A stretch of DNA of 64,000 bases from an uncultured Bacteroidales bacterium. GTDB taxonomy: Bacteria > Bacteroidota > Bacteroidia > Bacteroidales > Paludibacteraceae. The notes beneath the pieces were generated by a model that was given only the letters and a program-made list of their open reading frames with translations, was not told the origin of the DNA and ran no database searches. The stretch is taken from contig CAMUYI010000005.1 in assembly GCA_947164985.1 (NCBI GenBank), forward strand, positions 1 to 64,000. The letters run 5' to 3'. The position numbers and the translations under genes are program-made. Numbering within the stretch: position 1 is the first letter of the stretch; the number at the start of each line of letters is the position of its first letter. Shown here in pieces: positions 3,535 through 61,458 of the stretch.

Positions 3535-4872
3535 ATGACAAAAATTCATTTTATAGCTATTGGTGGTGCGGCGATGCATAACTTGGCATTGGCCGTTGCC
3601 TCCAAGGCTGGGTATCAAGTAACAGGCTCGGATGATGAGATCTTCGAGCCTGCTTTGTCTCATCTGCGTGATGCCGGTCTGCTGCCGGATGAGATCGGTT
3701 GGCACCCCGAGCGTATCACGCCGGATCTCGATGCGATCATTCTCGGTATGCATGCCCGCGAAGATAACCCCGAGTTGGTGCGCGCCCGCGAGTTAGGCAT
3801 CAAGATCTACTCCTTCCCCGAGTACCTCTACGAGCAGACGAAGGACAAGATCCGTATCGTGGTAGGCGGTTCGCACGGTAAGACGACCACTACGTCCATG
3901 ATCCTCTATGTGCTCAACCGTTTGGGCATCGAGGCAGACTACATGGTAGGCGCGCAGATCGAAGGGTTCGAACGCATGGTACGCCTGAGCGATACAGCCA
4001 AGTACGCGGTCTTTGAGGGCGATGAGTACCTCACTTCCCCACTCGACCTGCGGTCCAAGTTCCTCTGGTATCACCCGCATGTAGCCATCCTGACCGGCAT
4101 CGCATGGGATCATATCAATGTGTTCCCGACCTTCCCGGAGTACGTGGAGACCTTCCGCCAATTTACGCACACCATTTCCGACGCCTTCATTTACTATAAA
4201 GGCGATGAGAACCTATGCCTCCTGGCGGAGGAATTGAAAATGGAAAATGGAAAATGTAAAATTATTCCTTACGACGCATACGATGGGAATGTGGCGATGC
4301 AGGTGTTCGGAAAGCACAATATGCAGAACCTGCAGGCGGCGATGCTGGCCTGCCATTGTATCGGTGTGGCGCCGGATGATTTCTACCGCGAGATAGCATC
4401 CTTCACCGGAGCATCGAACCGTCTGGAGAAGATCGCTGAGACCGAGACCTGCGTGGCGTACAAAGATTTTGCACACAGTCCGTCCAAACTGAAAGCGACC
4501 ATTAATGCGGTTCGGGAGCGCTATCCGGACAAGCAGTTGGTAGCCTGCATGGAGTTGCATACCTTCTCCAGCCTGATGGCGGATTTCCTGCCGCAGTACC
4601 AAGGCTGCATGGCCGAAGCCGACAAGGCATTCGTCTATTTCAACCCCAAGGTAATCGAGCATAAAAAACTCACTCCGATCACAAAAGAGGCGGTTCGTGA
4701 CGCGTTTGGCACGAAAAATGTAGAGGTGTTTACCGAGAGTGCGGCGATGACGGAAGCTATCAGCCGTCAGTATTCAGCATTCAGCCATCAGGGCATAGCC
4801 TTGCTGATGATGTCCAGCGGCACGTTCGATGGCATTGACGTGAAAGAGTTCGCGCACGAACTCTTCAGTTGA
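3535..4872 (+). CDS. mpl: Mur ligase family protein, Mpl-like
   Basis: 445 aa. It starts HFIAIGGAAMHNLA, a MurC/Mpl-type dinucleotide-like fold, and has the ATP P-loop GGSHGKTTTTS at ~113-123 and the Mur signature GDEYLTSPLD. Mpl ligates the recovered tripeptide L-Ala-gamma-D-Glu-meso-DAP to UDP-MurNAc in peptidoglycan recycling, in the cytosol. The GSDDEIFEP and GMHAREDNPE segments fit the Bacteroidota Mpl-like group better than MurC, but a different Mur substrate cannot be excluded. Two heptamer arrays are in frame: one encodes LKMENGKCK and one SRQYSAFSHQ near the C-terminus. The stop codon lies inside a third array. The gene starts 14 bp after tig. Confidence 0.88.
   Translation: MTKIHFIAIGGAAMHNLALAVASKAGYQVTGSDDEIFEPALSHLRDAGLLPDEIGWHPERITPDLDAIILGMHAREDNPELVRARELGIKIYSFPEYLYEQTKDKIRIVVGGSHGKTTTTSMILYVLNRLGIEADYMVGAQIEGFERMVRLSDTAKYAVFEGDEYLTSPLDLRSKFLWYHPHVAILTGIAWDHINVFPTFPEYVETFRQFTHTISDAFIYYKGDENLCLLAEELKMENGKCKIIPYDAYDGNVAMQVFGKHNMQNLQAAMLACHCIGVAPDDFYREIASFTGASNRLEKIAETETCVAYKDFAHSPSKLKATINAVRERYPDKQLVACMELHTFSSLMADFLPQYQGCMAEADKAFVYFNPKVIEHKKLTPITKEAVRDAFGTKNVEVFTESAAMTEAISRQYSAFSHQGIALLMMSSGTFDGIDVKEFAHELFS
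4232..4263. repeat. Heptamer array in mpl (AATGGAA)
   Basis: Four and a half 7-mers (AATTGAA, AATGGAA, AATGGAA, AATGTAA) encode LKMENGKCKI. Related arrays in ddl encode LENGEWKLEN and GEWKMENGKW. Confidence 0.9.
4759..4793. repeat. Heptamer array in mpl (ATCAGCC x5)
   Basis: Five 7-mers are near-identical to the typA array at 504-538 and are read in the same frame, giving SRQYSAFSHQ. Confidence 0.9.
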
Positions 4873-4895
4873 AAGTTGAAAGTTGAAAGTTGAAA
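4868..4895. repeat. Heptamer array GTTGAAA x4 at gene junction
   Basis: Four perfect GTTGAAA units span the mpl stop codon (TGA at 4870-4872) and end three bases before the next ATG. The TTG used by the ORF track as a start lies inside this repeat. Confidence 0.95.
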
Positions 4896-4898
4896 GAT

Positions 4899-5327
4899 AT
4901 GGATAAGCAAACAAGACGCGATTATTTATATATGCGCATGGCGCGTACCTGGGCGGAGAACAGTTACTGCGTACGCCGTAAGGTAGGTGCGTTGCTGGTC
5001 AAGAACCAGATGATCATCTCCGACGGATACAACGGTACTCCTTCGGGCTTTGAGAACATATGCGAAGACGAGAACAACGTGAGCAAGCCCTATGTGCTGC
5101 ATGCGGAAGCGAATGCGCTGACCAAGGTAGCCCGCTCCAATAACAGTTCGGACGGCGCCACGCTCTACGTCACCGCATCGCCTTGCCTCGAGTGCTCCAA
5201 ACTGATCATCCAGTCCGGTATCAAGCGTGTCGTTTACGGCGAAGAGTACCGCATCATGGATGGTGTAGAACTGCTCAAACGCGCAGGTATTGAGGTCGTT
5301 TTCCTGAACGACCAGAAATCAGAATAA
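4899..5327 (+). CDS. dCMP deaminase family protein
   Basis: 142 aa from the ATG giving MDKQTRRDYLYMRMARTWAENS; the track TTG start lies in a 7-bp repeat and is rejected. It is a zinc-dependent cytidine/deoxycytidylate deaminase, probably converting dCMP to dUMP for dTTP synthesis in the cytosol. The zinc and catalytic motifs HAEANAL and TASPCLECSK (PCxxC) are present, with the N-terminal SYCVRRKVGALLVK that is typical of the ComEB/dCMP deaminase group. Length is normal. It lies 26 bp after mpl and may be cotranscribed with it. The exact substrate is inferred. Confidence 0.9.
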   Translation: MDKQTRRDYLYMRMARTWAENSYCVRRKVGALLVKNQMIISDGYNGTPSGFENICEDENNVSKPYVLHAEANALTKVARSNNSSDGATLYVTASPCLECSKLIIQSGIKRVVYGEEYRIMDGVELLKRAGIEVVFLNDQKSE

Positions 5328-5357
5328 TTAACAATTATCAATTCACAATTAACAAAG
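5323..5357. repeat. Heptamer array AACAATT x5 (left arm)
   Basis: Units AATAATT, AACAATT, ATCAATT, CACAATT and AACAAAG overlap the stop of the deaminase gene and lead straight into the 75-bp hairpin core. Confidence 0.9.
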
Positions 5358-5432
5358 CGTCCTGGAAAGTTCTGTACAAAACTTGAAGAACCGTACGTAT
5401 TCTAAAAGTTCGTACAAAACTCCAAGAGCCCT
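5358..5432. repeat. 75-bp foldable core element, copy 1
   Basis: It starts GCGTCCT and ends CCAAGAGCCCT, like the copy at 23438-23513. Arm GGAAAGTTCTGTAC can pair with GTACAAAACTCC, and an inner AGAACCGTACGTATTCT is nearly self-complementary. Arm sequences differ from copy 2 while pairing is largely kept. It is flanked by (AACAATT)n on the left and (TTGTAMA)n on the right. Confidence 0.75.
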
Positions 5433-5460
5433 TTATACATTATACATTGTAAATTGTACA
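5433..5460. repeat. Heptamer array TTGTACA x4 (right arm)
   Basis: Units TTATACA, TTATACA, TTGTAAA and TTGTACA end directly before the ATG of the S41 protease gene. Polarity is opposite to the left arm (AACAATT). Confidence 0.9.
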
Positions 5461-5462
5461 TT

Positions 5463-22337: not shown

Positions 22338-22362
22338 TGCCCGAATTTGGTTTTTAGTGAAA

Positions 22363-23412
22363 ATGAAACGAAAGATAGCTATTATAGCGGGAGGAGACAG
22401 CAGCGAACATGAGGTATCGCTCCGGTCGGCTGCAGGTCTGTACTCCTTCATGGATAAGGAGCGTTACGACGTGACGATCGTCGTCTTTGACGGGAAGAAC
22501 TGGTATGCCGTTCCGGCATTGGAAAATGGAGAATGGAAATTGGAGAATGATTCTTATCCCATCGACAAGAATGATTTTTCTTTTACGCGCGCAGGCGTAA
22601 AACATACCTTTGATTTTGCGTATATCACTATTCATGGCACACCGGGTGAGAACGGAATATTGCAGGGATACCTCGATATGATCGGTATGCCGTACAGTTG
22701 TTGCGGAGTGTTGGCCGCAGCATTGACGTTCAATAAGTACGCCTGCAACCATTACCTCTCTTATTTTGGTTTCCATATCGCGAACAGTATGATGCTGCGT
22801 GCCGGTCAGAAACTGCCGAACGCGCCGAAGATCGCGGAGACTTTAGGCCTGCCTTGTTTCATCAAATCGAACGTAGGCGGCAGCTCTTTCGGTTGCACGA
22901 AAGTGAAGACGGTGGAGGATATCTATCCGGCGATTGAACGGGCTTTCCAAGAGGGCGATGAGGTCATCTGCGAGTCGTTCATGCAAGGAACGGAAGTGAC
23001 CTGCGGTGTGTATAAGACGAAAGACAAAGCCGTTGCTTTCCCGATCACCGAGGTGGTGACGCATAATGAGTTCTTCGATTACGACGCCAAATACAAAGGT
23101 GAGGTGGACGAGATCACTCCGGCCCGCATCCCGGATGCGCTTCGCGATAAGATCCAGGCAGAAACCCTGCGTCTGTACGACATCATCGGTGCCAACGGTA
23201 TCATCCGTGTAGATTGGATCATTACTCCGAATGGAGAATGGAAAATGGAAAATGGAAAATGGACGGGTGATATGCCTCACATCAACCTCTTGGAGGTGAA
23301 CACGACTCCGGGTATGACGCCGACGAGTTTCATCCCGCAGCAGGTTCGTGCCGCAGGACTTGACATTAAAGATGTACTGACAGATATTATTGAGAACAAG
23401 TTTAACAATTAA
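22363..23412 (+). CDS. ddl: D-alanine--D-alanine ligase
   Basis: 349 aa from ATG 22363 (MKRKIAIIAGGDSSEHEVSLRS); the track GTG start six bases upstream is less likely. It makes D-Ala-D-Ala with ATP for peptidoglycan, in the cytosol. ATP-grasp features: HGTPGENGILQGYLDMIGMPYSCCGV, KSNVGGSSFGCTKV, EVTCGVY, DYDAKYKGEVDEITPARI and LLEVNTTPGMTPTSF. Two in-frame heptamer arrays encode LENGEWKLEN (~53-62) and GEWKMENGKW (~290-299); the second sits between WIITPN and the catalytic LLEVNTTPG strand, an unusual insertion in a conserved enzyme. Confidence 0.95.
   Translation: MKRKIAIIAGGDSSEHEVSLRSAAGLYSFMDKERYDVTIVVFDGKNWYAVPALENGEWKLENDSYPIDKNDFSFTRAGVKHTFDFAYITIHGTPGENGILQGYLDMIGMPYSCCGVLAAALTFNKYACNHYLSYFGFHIANSMMLRAGQKLPNAPKIAETLGLPCFIKSNVGGSSFGCTKVKTVEDIYPAIERAFQEGDEVICESFMQGTEVTCGVYKTKDKAVAFPITEVVTHNEFFDYDAKYKGEVDEITPARIPDALRDKIQAETLRLYDIIGANGIIRVDWIITPNGEWKMENGKWTGDMPHINLLEVNTTPGMTPTSFIPQQVRAAGLDIKDVLTDIIENKFNN
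22518..22552. repeat. Heptamer array in ddl (AATGGAA), first
   Basis: Five 7-mers ATTGGAA, AATGGAG, AATGGAA, ATTGGAG and AATGATT encode LENGEWKLEND. Confidence 0.9.
23230..23264. repeat. Heptamer array in ddl (AATGGAA), second
   Basis: Five 7-mers (AATGGAG, three AATGGAA, AATGGAC) encode NGEWKMENGKW. Confidence 0.95.
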
Positions 23413-23437
23413 CAATGAATAATTAACAATTAACAAA
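23404..23437. repeat. Heptamer array AACAATT x5 (left arm)
   Basis: Units AACAATT, AACAATG, AATAATT, AACAATT and AACAAAG start over the ddl stop codon and lead into the second hairpin core, exactly as at 5323-5357. Confidence 0.95.
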
Positions 23438-23513
23438 GCGTCCTAGAGGCTTTGGTACTAACTCAATAGAAAGTACGGATCTTCTAAACTTTGTACCAAG
23501 CGCCAAGAGCCCT
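23438..23513. repeat. 76-bp foldable core element, copy 2
   Basis: It starts GCGTCCT and ends CCAAGAGCCCT. GGCTTTGGTAC can pair with GTACCAAGCGCC. Borders match copy 1 (5358-5432) while the stem sequences differ. Confidence 0.75.
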
Positions 23514-23541
23514 TTGTAAATTGTACATTGTACATTGTAAA
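23514..23541. repeat. Heptamer array TTGTACA x4 (right arm)
   Basis: Units TTGTAAA, TTGTACA, TTGTACA and TTGTAAA end 11 bp before the next gene. Confidence 0.95.
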
Positions 23542-23552
23542 TTACGAATAGC

Positions 23553-33797: not shown

Positions 33798-36235
33798 TTC
33801 TCATTCTCTCCTTCCTTTCAATTTTCAATTTTCAATTTTCAATTCTCCACGCTGTCGAGACCATCATTATTGGCGAAATTGTCAATGAGACAACGGGTGA
33901 GGCGATACCGAATGTCAATGTGCATTTCCGGGGTACGAAGATCGGTACGACCTCCGATGAGAACGGTTCGTATGTCTTGCGGGTGGACATGACCGGCAAG
34001 GCACAACTGGTCTTCTCGGCCGTGGGTTATTATCCGCAGCGTTTTGAAGTCGAACCGGGTACGATGGCGGGTCTGCAGGTGGCGATGCGCGAACGCGTGG
34101 CGACACTCACCGAAGTGGTCGTAGCGCCTAATGAGAACCCTGCTTTGGAACTTTTACGCCAAGTGCGGGCACATCGGCAGGACAATGACCGGACACTGCA
34201 TCCGGAAATCGGTGCCACACTGAAACGCGAACAGACGCTTTACGTCTCGCACATCAATAAGCGGCATCTGCGCCGCGCGTTATGGAAGAGCCTGCAATCG
34301 GGCATGTTAGAACAAGAGGACTCAACCTATATCCTACCGCTCTACCGCGAGACGCAGTCCTTCCGAATGGCAGGAACGGAAGCCATACCCGCCAATGACC
34401 AACAGCATCAGGCGCTGATCCTCAGCGAGACGGACTACTCTTCCCTGCTGGGCGGCGAAGGCAATCTCAATTTCTACGCCAATTCCGTCCCGCTCATGGG
34501 CCATGCCTTCCTCTCACCTTTGGCTACCGGCGGAAACCTCTATTATAAGTATTATCTTTCAGACGAAGTCGGTCTTACAGAGAACGAAAGTGAACGGTCT
34601 TACAGTGAAACGGTCTTACAGCAAAGCGGTCTCGTTCGGATTCACTTCCGAACGAGAAACCCTTTCTACGCCACGTTTAACGGCGAGATGGTAATCGATA
34701 CCGCGACCTATGCGTTGCGGTCCATTACCGCCTACGTGCCGGCAGAGGTAGCGGTGAACTATGTCAATAACCTGCATGTCTCGCAGACGCTGGCGCCGGA
34801 CGGATCTATCGCCGAAGAACATGTGTCTGCGCTATTGGACATCTCCATCAAAACAGAGAAAGCCGGCACAGTCTTCCCGACGCTCTTGCTAACGACTTCG
34901 CTGAAGAACCCTACAGCGAACAAAGTGAGCGGTCTTACAGCGAAGCGGTCCTACAGCGTCAGCGGTCTTACAGCCGAAGGCGGTCCATCAAAGGCAGACA
35001 GTGCCTTCACGGCGCTGGATTCTCTGCCTTTGATAAAAACCGCCAAGTGGTTTGCGACGATCGCAACGACGGGATATATTCCTACCGGCACGTTCCTCGA
35101 TATCGGTCACATAGAAGAGATCTTGCAAGTGAATCATCACGAAGGCGTGCATTTCGGTCTGCCCTTCCGCACGAACGAGAAACTATCCAAGGTCGTGAGT
35201 CTCGAGGCCTCGGTAGGCTATGGTATCAAGGACCGCAGCCCAAAGGGCATGGGACGCATATCGGTGAACCTGCCTACGGCGCGCAAGCAAACGATGCAAC
35301 TGGAGTACAACGATCATTATGTATGGTCGGAGGTCGATGATTTCGATCGGATGCTCCGCGAGAACTCGATGGGTTGGGGTAACTTTGACTTCACGGCATA
35401 TGCGTTTGAGGCCCTGCATCGCGACAGCCTATGCGTCAATACCGCCATGCGGCAGAGACAATTTCAATTGCATTGGTTTGCAGATTGGCATAAGAATGTA
35501 GAGACCCATACCTTCATTCGCGCAGGATGGCAAGACGGCTATGCATATCAATCGTTGTCCGCCATCGTGCGTCTCAGTTGGGGCGAACGCAAGTACGACG
35601 GTTATTTCATGCGCCGCTATGCCTACTCACCCAAGTATCCGGTGCTCTATGCCGGCTTCGAAACCGGACATTGGAGTCTTACAGCCGAAGGCGGTCTTTA
35701 TTGCCATTTGCGCCTTATGCTGACGCAACACGCTAACTTAGGTATGGGCGGTATGCTCACCTATGCCCTGCAGGCGGGTGCTATCTTCGGGCACGTGCCT
35801 ACGTCCCTACTCTGGCAGGCAAGTGCGAACCAAGGTTATGCGTATGATCCGTACCGTTTCACGATGCTGCATGGCGGACAACTGCTGGCAGATAAGTACG
35901 TAGCGCTGCATGCCGAATGGAACGGCGAGGGAATCCTCTTCAACCTCATCCCGGGTATCCGATGGCTCCATCTCCGCGAACTCGTCGAAGCCAAGATCGC
36001 TTATGGATATTTATCTTACAGCGTAAGCGGTCTTACAGCGAAGCGGTCTTACAGTGCTAACGGTCTTACAGGCGAAGCCGGTCTCTACACGGAGGTAGGC
36101 CTCGGATTAGGTAACATCCTCCGCGTCTGTGACCTCTATTCCGTCTGGGGCTTCATGCCAAATGACCAAATGGTAAATGACAAAATGGTAAATGTCATGT
36201 GGGGTATGCGTTTCCGCATTCATTTAGGCCTCTAA
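33743..36235 (+). CDS. DUF5686 outer-membrane protein with carboxypeptidase-regulatory-like domain
   Basis: 830 aa. The N-terminus MKGERTYKVKGERLKGKG and the hydrophobic signal core SFLSIFNFQFSILH are encoded by two different heptamer arrays. Then come a CarboxypepD_reg-like domain (~42-125: IIIGEIVNETTGEAIPNVNVHFRGTKIGT) and a large DUF5686 part ending in a barrel (YGFM-type strands, final MWGMRFRIHLGL). Such proteins sit in the outer membrane; their role is unclear. Stretches SYSVSGLTAKRSYSVSGLTA come from a 16-17 bp repeat found at four places in the gene. Copy-number change in the first arrays could shift the frame. Confidence 0.85.
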   Translation: MKGERTYKVKGERLKGKGILILSFLSIFNFQFSILHAVETIIIGEIVNETTGEAIPNVNVHFRGTKIGTTSDENGSYVLRVDMTGKAQLVFSAVGYYPQRFEVEPGTMAGLQVAMRERVATLTEVVVAPNENPALELLRQVRAHRQDNDRTLHPEIGATLKREQTLYVSHINKRHLRRALWKSLQSGMLEQEDSTYILPLYRETQSFRMAGTEAIPANDQQHQALILSETDYSSLLGGEGNLNFYANSVPLMGHAFLSPLATGGNLYYKYYLSDEVGLTENESERSYSETVLQQSGLVRIHFRTRNPFYATFNGEMVIDTATYALRSITAYVPAEVAVNYVNNLHVSQTLAPDGSIAEEHVSALLDISIKTEKAGTVFPTLLLTTSLKNPTANKVSGLTAKRSYSVSGLTAEGGPSKADSAFTALDSLPLIKTAKWFATIATTGYIPTGTFLDIGHIEEILQVNHHEGVHFGLPFRTNEKLSKVVSLEASVGYGIKDRSPKGMGRISVNLPTARKQTMQLEYNDHYVWSEVDDFDRMLRENSMGWGNFDFTAYAFEALHRDSLCVNTAMRQRQFQLHWFADWHKNVETHTFIRAGWQDGYAYQSLSAIVRLSWGERKYDGYFMRRYAYSPKYPVLYAGFETGHWSLTAEGGLYCHLRLMLTQHANLGMGGMLTYALQAGAIFGHVPTSLLWQASANQGYAYDPYRFTMLHGGQLLADKYVALHAEWNGEGILFNLIPGIRWLHLRELVEAKIAYGYLSYSVSGLTAKRSYSANGLTGEAGLYTEVGLGLGNILRVCDLYSVWGFMPNDQMVNDKMVNVMWGMRFRIHLGL
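33818..33845. repeat. Heptamer array TCAATTT x4 encoding the signal-peptide core
   Basis: Three TCAATTT units and one TCAATTC encode SIFNFQFSI, the hydrophobic core of the DUF5686 signal peptide. Confidence 0.95.
34588..34634. repeat. 16-bp repeat AGCGGTCTTACAGCGA, first cluster
   Basis: ACGGTCTTACAGTGAA and ACGGTCTTACAGCAAA lie in tandem in the DUF5686 gene and encode ERSYSETVLQQSG. Related units occur at 34923-34985, 35674-35697 and 36017-36084. Confidence 0.85.
34923..34985. repeat. 16-17 bp repeat, second cluster
   Basis: AGCGGTCTTACAGCGA, AGCGGTCCTACAGCGTC and AGCGGTCTTACAGCCGA in tandem encode SGLTAKRSYSVSGLTAEGG. Confidence 0.85.
36017..36084. repeat. 16-17 bp repeat, fourth cluster
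   Basis: At least four tandem units of the GGTCTTACAG type encode SYSVSGLTAKRSYSANGLTGEAG, near the end of the DUF5686 protein. It is followed at 36158-36196 by (C)AAATGGT-like 7-8 bp units. Confidence 0.85.
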
Positions 36236-37971: not shown

Positions 37972-38068
37972 ATTTTTGAGGGAAAATTCTTCGTTTTGGG
38001 AACATTTTGGGTTATTTTGGACTAAGTTTCCATTTTTTCTCGTAATTGGCGTATACTTATTATAGTAT

Positions 38069-38123
38069 GTTATTAGTAGGTGATTAGTAGGTGATTAGTA
38101 GGTGATTAGTAGGTTATTAGTAT
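38069..38123. repeat. 11-bp tandem repeat, second locus
   Basis: Five 11-bp units G(T/G)(T)ATTAGTAG, the same sequence family as 211-276. The rest of 37972-38200 shows no gene. Confidence 0.9.
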
Positions 38124-58100: not shown

Positions 58101-61100
58101 ATGCAAATCAAAGATTTGAATATACTGTTCGGAGAGCACCCAGAAATAAAGGCGATCGGTGAGCGGTTAGGGGTTAGAGGAGATAAACACCTCCTATTGA
58201 GCGGGTTGCACGCGAGTGCACGCGCGCTGGCGTTGGCGCATGTAACTCAGCCGATGTTTGTGATCTTTGACAATGCAGAAGCAGCACAATACGCGTATAG
58301 CGACCTGAAGGCGCTGGGCACAAATGTCGGATTTTTTCCTGCCGCAAAACGCAGACGAACCATTGACGATGCAGCTGTCATACAGCGAACGGAAACGCTC
58401 ACAACGATGCCGCATATCATTGTGACGTATCCCGAGGCGGTGGCAGAGAGCGTGCCGGCGAAAGAGGAGCTGAAGGCGGTGAGTTTTCAGTTGTCAGTTG
58501 GGCAGGAGATACAGCTGTCAGCACTCAGTAGTCAGCTTTCAGAGTTGGGATTTGAGCGGGTGGATTTTGTGTTTCAGCCGGGACAGTATGCGGTGAGAGG
58601 ATCGATCGTGGATATTTACAGTTATAGCCATGATACACCCTACCGGTTGGACTTCTTCGGAGATGAGATAGACTCGATACGGGAGTTTGATATAGAGGAC
58701 CAGCTTTCGAAGAACCGAGTGGATTCTGCCGAAATCGTCGGTTCTTCGAAACAATGTACAATGGACAATGTACAATGTACAATTGTGGACTATCTGACGG
58801 AGGAGTATGTGTGGGTGAGCAATGATTTCTCCATCGTGCGGTTTAAACTAGAAGGGTTACAGGTTACGGGTTACGGGTTACAGGAAAGAAAGACGATAGA
58901 GATTGCGGAAAAAAGTACTTTCCCGGAGTATACGAAGATAGAATTTGAGACGGTACCGCAGCCGGTCTTCCATAAGCAATTCGACATCCTGACAGACGAT
59001 CTGAAGCGGCATATAGACGAGGGATACAAAATCTATATCTTAGCGGAGCAGCAGAAGCAGCTCGATCGCTTGGCGGCGATTTTTGATAGTTTAGAGGACG
59101 GCTCTGCGAGCCTACAGGACGCTAACGCTACAGGTGTTCGGTTTATTCCGATTCAGGCGACGTTGCATGAGGGGTTTGTGGATAAGGGATTGAAGATTTG
59201 TTGCTACACCGATCATCAGATCTTTGAGCGGTACCACCGCGTGACGATGACGAGTGAGAACGCGCGAAGAGGTAAGGCTATTATCACCTTAAGGGAGATT
59301 AACCAGTTGCAGATCGGCGATTATGTGGTGCATAGCGATCATGGTATTGCTAAGTTCGGCGGGTTGGTGACAACACCGGTGAACGGTAAACCGCAAGAGA
59401 TGATCAAATTGATTTACCGCGACGGCGCGAATGTGTTTGTGAGCATCCATAACCTGCACCGCATCAGTAAATACAAGGGTCGTGAGGGTTCAGAACCGAC
59501 GATCGCGCGGTTGGGTAGCGGTGCATGGGAACGGTTGAAAGAGCGGACGAAGGACAAGGTGAAGGACATCGCGCGGGACTTGATTCGTCTCTACGCGACG
59601 CGCAAGCAGCAGAAAGGGTACGCTTATTCGCCGGACGGGTATATGCAGCATGAGTTGGAGGCGTCGTTCTTATACGAAGATACGCCGGATCAGGCAAAGG
59701 CGACGGCAGACGTGAAGCATGACTTGGAGAGTCCGATGCCGATGGATCGGTTGGTTTGCGGCGATGTGGGATTCGGCAAGACAGAAGTGGCGATGCGTGC
59801 AGCGTTTAAGGTCGCGACCGATGGTAAGCAAGTGGCGGTACTGGTGCCGACAACCGTTTTGGCTTTGCAGCACTATAACACCTTCCGCGAGCGAATGAAG
59901 AATATGCCGGTGCGGATCGAGTACCTCAGCCGATTGAAGAGCGCGAAGGAGATGAAAGAGATCCTGGCGGACTTGGAGGCGGGCAAGATAGACATCCTGA
60001 TCGGTACGCATAAGATCATCGGTAAGGGCGTCAAATGGCACGACTTGGGACTGCTGATTATCGATGAGGAACAGAAGTTCGGTGTGGCCGCGAAAGAGAA
60101 GCTGAAGAGTATGCGCGCCAATATCGATGTGCTGACGCTGACGGCAACGCCTATCCCGCGTACCTTGCAGTTTAGTTTGCTGGGCGCAAGGGATCTGAGT
60201 ATCATGACGACTCCGCCGCCGAACAGGTATCCGGTGCAGACGGAGTTGATCACGATCGACGACGAAGATATCATCAAAGAGGCGATCGAGTTGGAGATGG
60301 GTCGAAACGGACAGATTTTTGTGGTGAACAACCGTATTGAGATGCTACCGCGTATTGAGCATCGGTTGCAAAAACTTTGTCCGGAGGCGCGTATCGTGAC
60401 GGCGCATGGTCAACTGCCGGCGGGCGAGATGGAAGAGCGGTTGGAAGCGTTTATCAACTACGACTATGATATCCTGCTGGCGACGACGATCATCGAGTCC
60501 GGCGTGGATATACCGAACGTGAATACGATACTCATCTTCAGTGCGGACAAGTACGGTCTGGCGGACTTGCACCAGTTGCGAGGGCGCGTAGGACGAAGTA
60601 ACCGAAAGGCGTACTGCTACCTGATCGCGCCGGAGAAGGAGCTATTGACGGAAGATGCGAGAAGGCGGTTGGAGGCCTTGAGCACGTTTGCCGAGTTGGG
60701 TTCGGGCTTTAACTTAGCGATGCAGGACCTCGATATCCGCGGGGCAGGAAATATGTTAGGGGCAGAGCAGTCGGGATTTATTGCGGATCTGGGCTATGAG
60801 ACGTATCAGCGGATACTGAATGAGGCGGTGGAAGAGTTGCGCGAGGAACTCGCGCTTAATGATGAAAATGGTGACGCTTCGCTTAATGATGCGAATGGTG
60901 CGAATGATGGAAAGCACCTCTGGTGTGGGGATAGTCAGTTGGAGACGGATATCGCGGTATGCTTCCCGACGGATTATATTGAGAACGTGAGTGAGCGTAT
61001 CACGCTGTACCGGGAGTTGGACGGGATCCGCAGTGAGGAACAGATGCTGGACTTCAAGAAGAAGTTGATCGACCGCTTTGGCGTACTACCGGAACCGGCA

Positions 61101-61421: not shown

Positions 61422-61423
61422 GA

Positions 61424-61458
61424 ATTGTAGATTGTAAATTGTACATTGTAAATTGATA
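61424..61458. repeat. Heptamer array ATTGTAA x5 between mfd and kdsB
   Basis: ATTGTAG, ATTGTAA, ATTGTAC, ATTGTAA, ATTGATA fill the whole gap and touch the kdsB ATG. Confidence 0.95.

Follow-up and report, generated by a model that had tools for sequence, protein, structure and literature searches.

A dispersed palindromic repeat of about 137 bp with inverted four-heptad arms, probably mobile, in one genus of gut Bacteroidales

Introduction

Heptanucleotide repeats are over-represented in many bacteria. According to the excerpts available of two studies, no cause of this is accepted, and polymerase slippage has been hypothesised (PMC4692102, PMC4679880). The closest precedent for the arms of the element described here is found in the GGGAATC or (GGGANTN)n heptamer arrays of Xanthomonas. 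In the excerpted description, these are dispersed, mostly intergenic and degenerate 7-nt arrays, most often of four units within a range of 2-26, and each genome has 70-75 pairs in inverted orientation (PMC4692102). Their unit is G-rich and forms quadruplexes, and the same excerpt describes no conserved core between paired arrays (PMC4692102). The TAACTGA repeats of Beggiatoaceae, Cyanobacteria and some Bacteroidetes are likewise tandem arrays of a 7-nt unit that lie between genes, and their copy number is mostly low. As excerpted, their report gives one strict unit and almost only direct arrays, with one inverted set in the described genome, and a core goes unmentioned (PMC4679880).

Two further systems are relevant. 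The REP, REPIN and BIME repeats, mobilised by RAYT/TnpA-REP, are short, palindromic, intergenic, dispersed and non-autonomous, and occur as inverted pairs. The REPs of E. coli retain a mismatch bulge that is required for transposase activity, and heptad arms are not described for these repeats in the portions of the literature available to us (PMC3733652, PMC8266576, PMC3116915). The BrickBuilt MITE of Porphyromonas gingivalis, also a member of the Bacteroidales, is intergenic and combines inverted-repeat ends with tandem repeats; the available excerpt places a 23-nt internal tandem repeat between a leader and a tail (PMC4596501).

The element described here resembles the Xanthomonas arrays in having about four degenerate 7-nt units per array and in being often arranged in inverted pairs. 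In contrast, its unit WYAATKH is AT-rich, its arms end sharply at four units and a palindrome of ~80 bp lies between them. Such a core also sets it apart from the TAACTGA repeats as excerpted. Like the repeats of the REP group it is short, palindromic, intergenic, dispersed and non-autonomous, but it carries heptad arms, and no GTAG tag was noticed at its ends. A CGTC is present within the conserved GCGTCCT of the core, but when the consensus was inspected by eye, a REP-type stem-loop of 8-9 bp after it was not evident. Unlike in BrickBuilt, the ends themselves are built of 7-nt repeats, and one conserved palindrome occupies the centre. Our literature search found no description of this element type.

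Results

The window, the whole stretch of 64,000 nucleotides that was analysed, comes from an uncultured member of the Bacteroidales (Paludibacteraceae). It contains two copies of the element, each 137 bp in length (5326-5462 and 23407-23543), and two arrays of the arm-type unit that stand alone:

5326..5353, plus strand: left arm of copy 1 (AATTAAC AATTATC AATTCAC AATTAAC), overlapping by 2 nt the stop codon of an upstream deaminase-like ORF (4890-5327)
5354..5434, plus strand: core of copy 1, an imperfect palindrome, AAAGCGTCC...GAGCCCTTT
5435..5462, plus strand: right arm of copy 1, inverted heptads, abutting ATGAAAAAA (5463)
23407..23434, plus strand: left arm of copy 2, providing the stop codon of a D-Ala-D-Ala-ligase-like gene (22357-23412)
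23435..23515, plus strand: core of copy 2, with the same sequence in genome G229
23516..23543, plus strand: right arm of copy 2, inverted heptads
58751..58783, plus strand: solo heptad array of the arm-type unit, four units plus AAT(T), without a core
61423..61455, minus strand: solo heptad array of the arm-type unit, four units plus AATT, without a core

The layout was re-measured on 58 copies and consists of a 28-bp arm, a core of 81 bp that starts with AAAG and ends with CTTT, and an inverted arm, again of 28 bp, so that the heptad arms are imperfect terminal inverted repeats. Each arm comprises four heptads with the consensus WYAATKH, whose copies are degenerate and inexact. The AAT hardly varies, position 6 takes either T or G, and a G is very rare at position 7. 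In the window copies, the left arm reads (AATKHAC)4 and is followed by AAAG. Exactly four heptads were counted in 40/58 left arms and in 40/58 right arms, and some arms of this set exceed four units. The outer edge is sharp at 28 nt from the core on both sides. Since the information falls immediately beyond this edge, the element is bounded and an open-ended microsatellite is excluded.

An earlier note on this DNA had described a heptamer arm, a core and an arm of opposite polarity, and this order was found in both copies, where the core stretch GCGTCCT...AGAGCCCT measures 76 bp (5357-5432 and 23438-23513). The composite nature of the element stands, with its extent corrected from 5323-5460 and 23404-23541 to the coordinates given above. 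The arms are inverted heptads as proposed; the left one has four units instead of five, and the units are degenerate and not exact copies of AACAATT and TTGTAMA.

The window holds other repeats as well. A separate family of 16-17 bp repeats of the type CGGTCTTACAGCGAAG lies at 34589-36089, and similar strings are present in spacers of G229. Two arrays with an 11-bp period and the common unit TAGTAGGTGAT are found far apart at 205-270 and 38063-38122, and this unit also occurs in G223. At the window start (1-109) there is a 32-bp tandem repeat, TGGTCCTTTTTTGCCGTGTTCCTGTTATAGCC.

The distribution of the element was examined with a composite pattern of inverted heptad arms 60-90 bp apart. Of the 151 genomes searched in this genus, 22 had a match. 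The reversed pattern gave 0 matches in each of the 151 genomes, and the composite element is therefore not a product of chance. A sequence-only covariance model was built from 34 copies. It detected the two window copies with E=4e-20 and 9e-20, both being among its building sequences. The number of matches per genome reached 45 (G223) and 44 (G266), counts that include some second-strand matches to the same palindrome, and was 0 in G021, G050 and G087. The window's genome has five copies: the two in the window, one at C1:31048, one at C4:33113 and a shortened one at C4:255237. A truncated half element, consisting of the left arm and AAAGCGTCCTAGTATG, was observed at L137:4681 (G000 C4) and at L277 (G298 C12), at the same place beside a gene in both species, and is a shared old remnant.

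The carriers are a minority of the species in one gut Bacteroidales genus. With a strict core pattern, 300 genomes of the family were searched and armed copies were found only in the window's genus; the matches outside it were chance matches that lacked the arms on inspection by eye. Genuine copies turned up in public records of MAGs that bear the label Bacteroidales or Paludibacteraceae; where the isolate names of these state an origin, it is the ruminant gut. A search of plasmid sequences gave no match to the element. Viral carriage was rejected, as the single viral match was an unrelated sequence with phage-like ORFs and without arms.

We then compared the occupied sites with those of relatives and found insertion polymorphism at orthologous intergenic sites. 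Both window sites are empty in the sister species G272, where the flanks are 91-98% identical. The spacer of G272 at site 1 is 28 bp long and carries a heptad-like repeat of another sort, and the genes on either side of site 2 abut. The remaining three sites of the window's genome are likewise empty in G272 (flanks across the sites mostly 91-98%), and the covariance model had 0 matches anywhere in this genome. G272 is an 86%-complete MAG, yet all five empty sites were read directly. Similarly, G287 is without copies at the G266 sites L127 and L130, with flanks of 94-99%. The comparison covered presence and absence at each site, and some of the polymorphism could stem from copies that G272 has lost.

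The site C1:31048 is occupied in G000, G229 and G223, and the cores have clearly diverged there, so that some copies must be old and have come down by vertical descent. G000 and G229 have identical elements at site 2, while the surrounding windows are mostly about 60-86% identical. To judge from this alignment, the identity amid diverged flanks suggests a recent exchange or an independent insertion. At one common site (L155 vs L145), the core lies in opposite orientation in two species. A scan of offsets and lengths flanking the copies revealed no consistent target-site duplication. Certain insertion mechanisms leave none.

The copies occupy intergenic spacers, with a median distance of 1 bp to the stop codon and 4 bp to the start codon. 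Their orientation is balanced (co-directional 23 vs 20, divergent 7, convergent 6), where the genes used for these context counts are ORFs from a simple script and not annotated genes.

The core was tested for RNA structure. RNAalifold predicted zero consensus pairs on the plus strand of 34 copies, and 75 distinct cores showed no compensatory covariation. Along their best palindrome axis, Watson-Crick matches make up 51%, which is only 0.005 above the expectation from column composition. G-T and A-C mismatches are equally frequent in the core (262 vs 253), and their ratio is about equal whichever strand is transcribed. The mean fold z was -1.2 and -1.6; the minus strand of copy 1 reached -5.0, with 0/200 shuffles as good. 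In the window, no Rfam match at the gathering score was obtained. The conserved motifs of the core are centred on GTAC and are palindromic by sequence, not by compensation. Since there is neither covariation nor a strand signal, the core is an imperfect palindrome whose sequence itself is conserved, as expected of a site that is recognised in DNA.

The arms carry a pairing signal of the reverse sense. At heptad position 7, their complementarity is 0.19 vs 0.34 in permuted arms, with 0/1000 permutations at or below this value, in a test where exact duplicate arm pairs had been removed and other kinship among the copies was uncontrolled. At position 6, the arms of one copy are slightly less complementary than permuted arms, and at position 2 they are more alike. 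If a mismatch is kept in about every heptad, the element falls short of a perfect long palindrome. It may reflect a bulged hairpin that is recognised, or an escape from palindrome-cleaving nucleases.

Heptad arrays are common beyond the element. In a sample of 464 kb, made up of the window and 20 further stretches and with the window's own composite arms counted in, the density of period-7 arrays of various units is about 284 per Mb. For the remaining periods examined between 5 and 11 it stayed at <=65 per Mb, period 14 is a multiple of 7, and a shuffled control contained no period-7 arrays. The number of units per array peaks at four (68 arrays vs 24 with three and 12 with five), in coding and intergenic sequence alike. 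In small samples of other genera of the family there were fewer arrays, and four units was the commonest number in 2/4 of them, at very small numbers.

Arrays of the arm unit without a core are many, even in genomes where no core was found, and hardly any inverted pairs of heptad arms that lack the core were seen in 12 genomes. Core-less inverted arms as a pre-existing target of the element were rejected on this account. When about 20 places with arm-type arrays were read, a few turned out to be full or truncated copies of this element. Arrays as the ends of a larger, gene-carrying element were considered too, and none was evident at these places, where the genes are unannotated.

Two arrays of other units lie close to the window copies. 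An in-frame AATGGAA-type array (23230-23263) is found inside the D-Ala-D-Ala-ligase-like gene and is absent from G272; it is missing in all five aligned relatives, G272 included, and the loop is shorter there. An (AGTTGAA)4 array (4867-4896), located where the ORF upstream of 4890 ends, is also absent from G272. At both equivalent positions G272 has no evident copy of the respective unit, so that slippage from a local seed is not obvious for these arrays. In the site 1 spacer of G272, by contrast, the end of the neighbouring gene is repeated. The arrays may therefore arise by local seeding or by block insertion. It is conceivable, if doubtful, that these genomes insert heptad arrays as whole blocks with a fixed unit number, about four or 28-33 bp. 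Such a process would cover the solo arrays as well as the inverted arms around a palindromic core, in spacers and even in genes, and the composite element would be one product of this machinery.

Discussion

Our results are probably best explained by a mobile, though non-autonomous, palindromic repeat of ~137 bp that lies dispersed in genomes of a single genus, the only one in which the searches found it. The earlier note had already considered a small non-autonomous mobile element, and two of the checks it proposed support this. The covariance-model search returned further copies, five in the window's genome and up to 45 matches elsewhere, and empty sites were found in relatives for 5/5 copies of the window's genome, in G272, and for the two G266 sites in G287. 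Its other idea, a structured RNA under selection for structure, is not supported, given the lack of predicted pairs (plus strand of 34 copies), of covariation (75 cores) and of a strand signal. Nor is there support, in the form proposed, for the element generating the heptamer arrays, because arrays of the same unit occur without the core, even in genomes where no core was found.

The mobility is most likely supplied in trans. A putative protein would recognise the heptad arms and the dyad-symmetric, GTAC-centred core at the DNA level, either in a hairpin, which may be extruded or single-stranded, or in double-stranded form. It would copy or move the element into spacers and leave no target duplication that can be detected. 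This scheme is modelled on the proposals for REP/REPIN repeats and IS200/IS605-like transposases. We liken the element to MITEs and REPINs and file it under neither, since no target duplication was found and REP tags were not convincingly present.

The element could instead be a functional DNA site maintained by selection, which would owe its spread to recombination and not to transposition. It would then act as a binding array for a nucleoid-associated, segregation or regulatory protein, with the 7-bp-spaced heptads and the dyad-symmetric core recruiting a protein multimer. The near-invariant AAT, the restricted heptad positions 6 and 7 and the strong conservation of the sequence-palindromic GTAC motifs are what such a site would be expected to display. 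We nevertheless regard it as unlikely, because the matches range from 0 to tens across species of one genus with none in the sister species, the orthologous copies at C1 diverged strongly, an orientation preference is absent and no common gene class was noticed, although gene functions were not analysed.

A very improbable source of the pattern is a set of free-running heptanucleotide slippage arrays on either side of a conserved repeat by chance, in which case there would be no element at all. The arms of most copies end at four units on both sides, core-less inverted arms are nearly absent from the 12 genomes and the two arms of one copy are correlated, and these observations outweigh the richness of the genus in heptad arrays of various units and the occasional arm with more than four. 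Least credible is an element acting at the RNA level, as a terminator, stabiliser or structured small RNA formed by an intergenic transcript hairpin: most copies do lie in spacers of co-directional genes and the minus strand of copy 1 folds exceptionally well, but the mean fold z is modest, the window has no Rfam match, and neither paired columns, covariation nor a strand signal, even when split by the direction of transcription, was detected.

The preferred reading, a mobile repeat, has a bearing on heptad arrays in general. In this genus the arrays are most numerous at four units and do not simply become rarer as they lengthen, and two are missing from the sister species. One class of heptads forms the precise ends of a mobile-looking palindrome. 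This provides a concrete and testable system for working out how four-unit heptad arrays originate. If the element is mobile, it would help to explain the turnover of intergenic spacers in this gut lineage.
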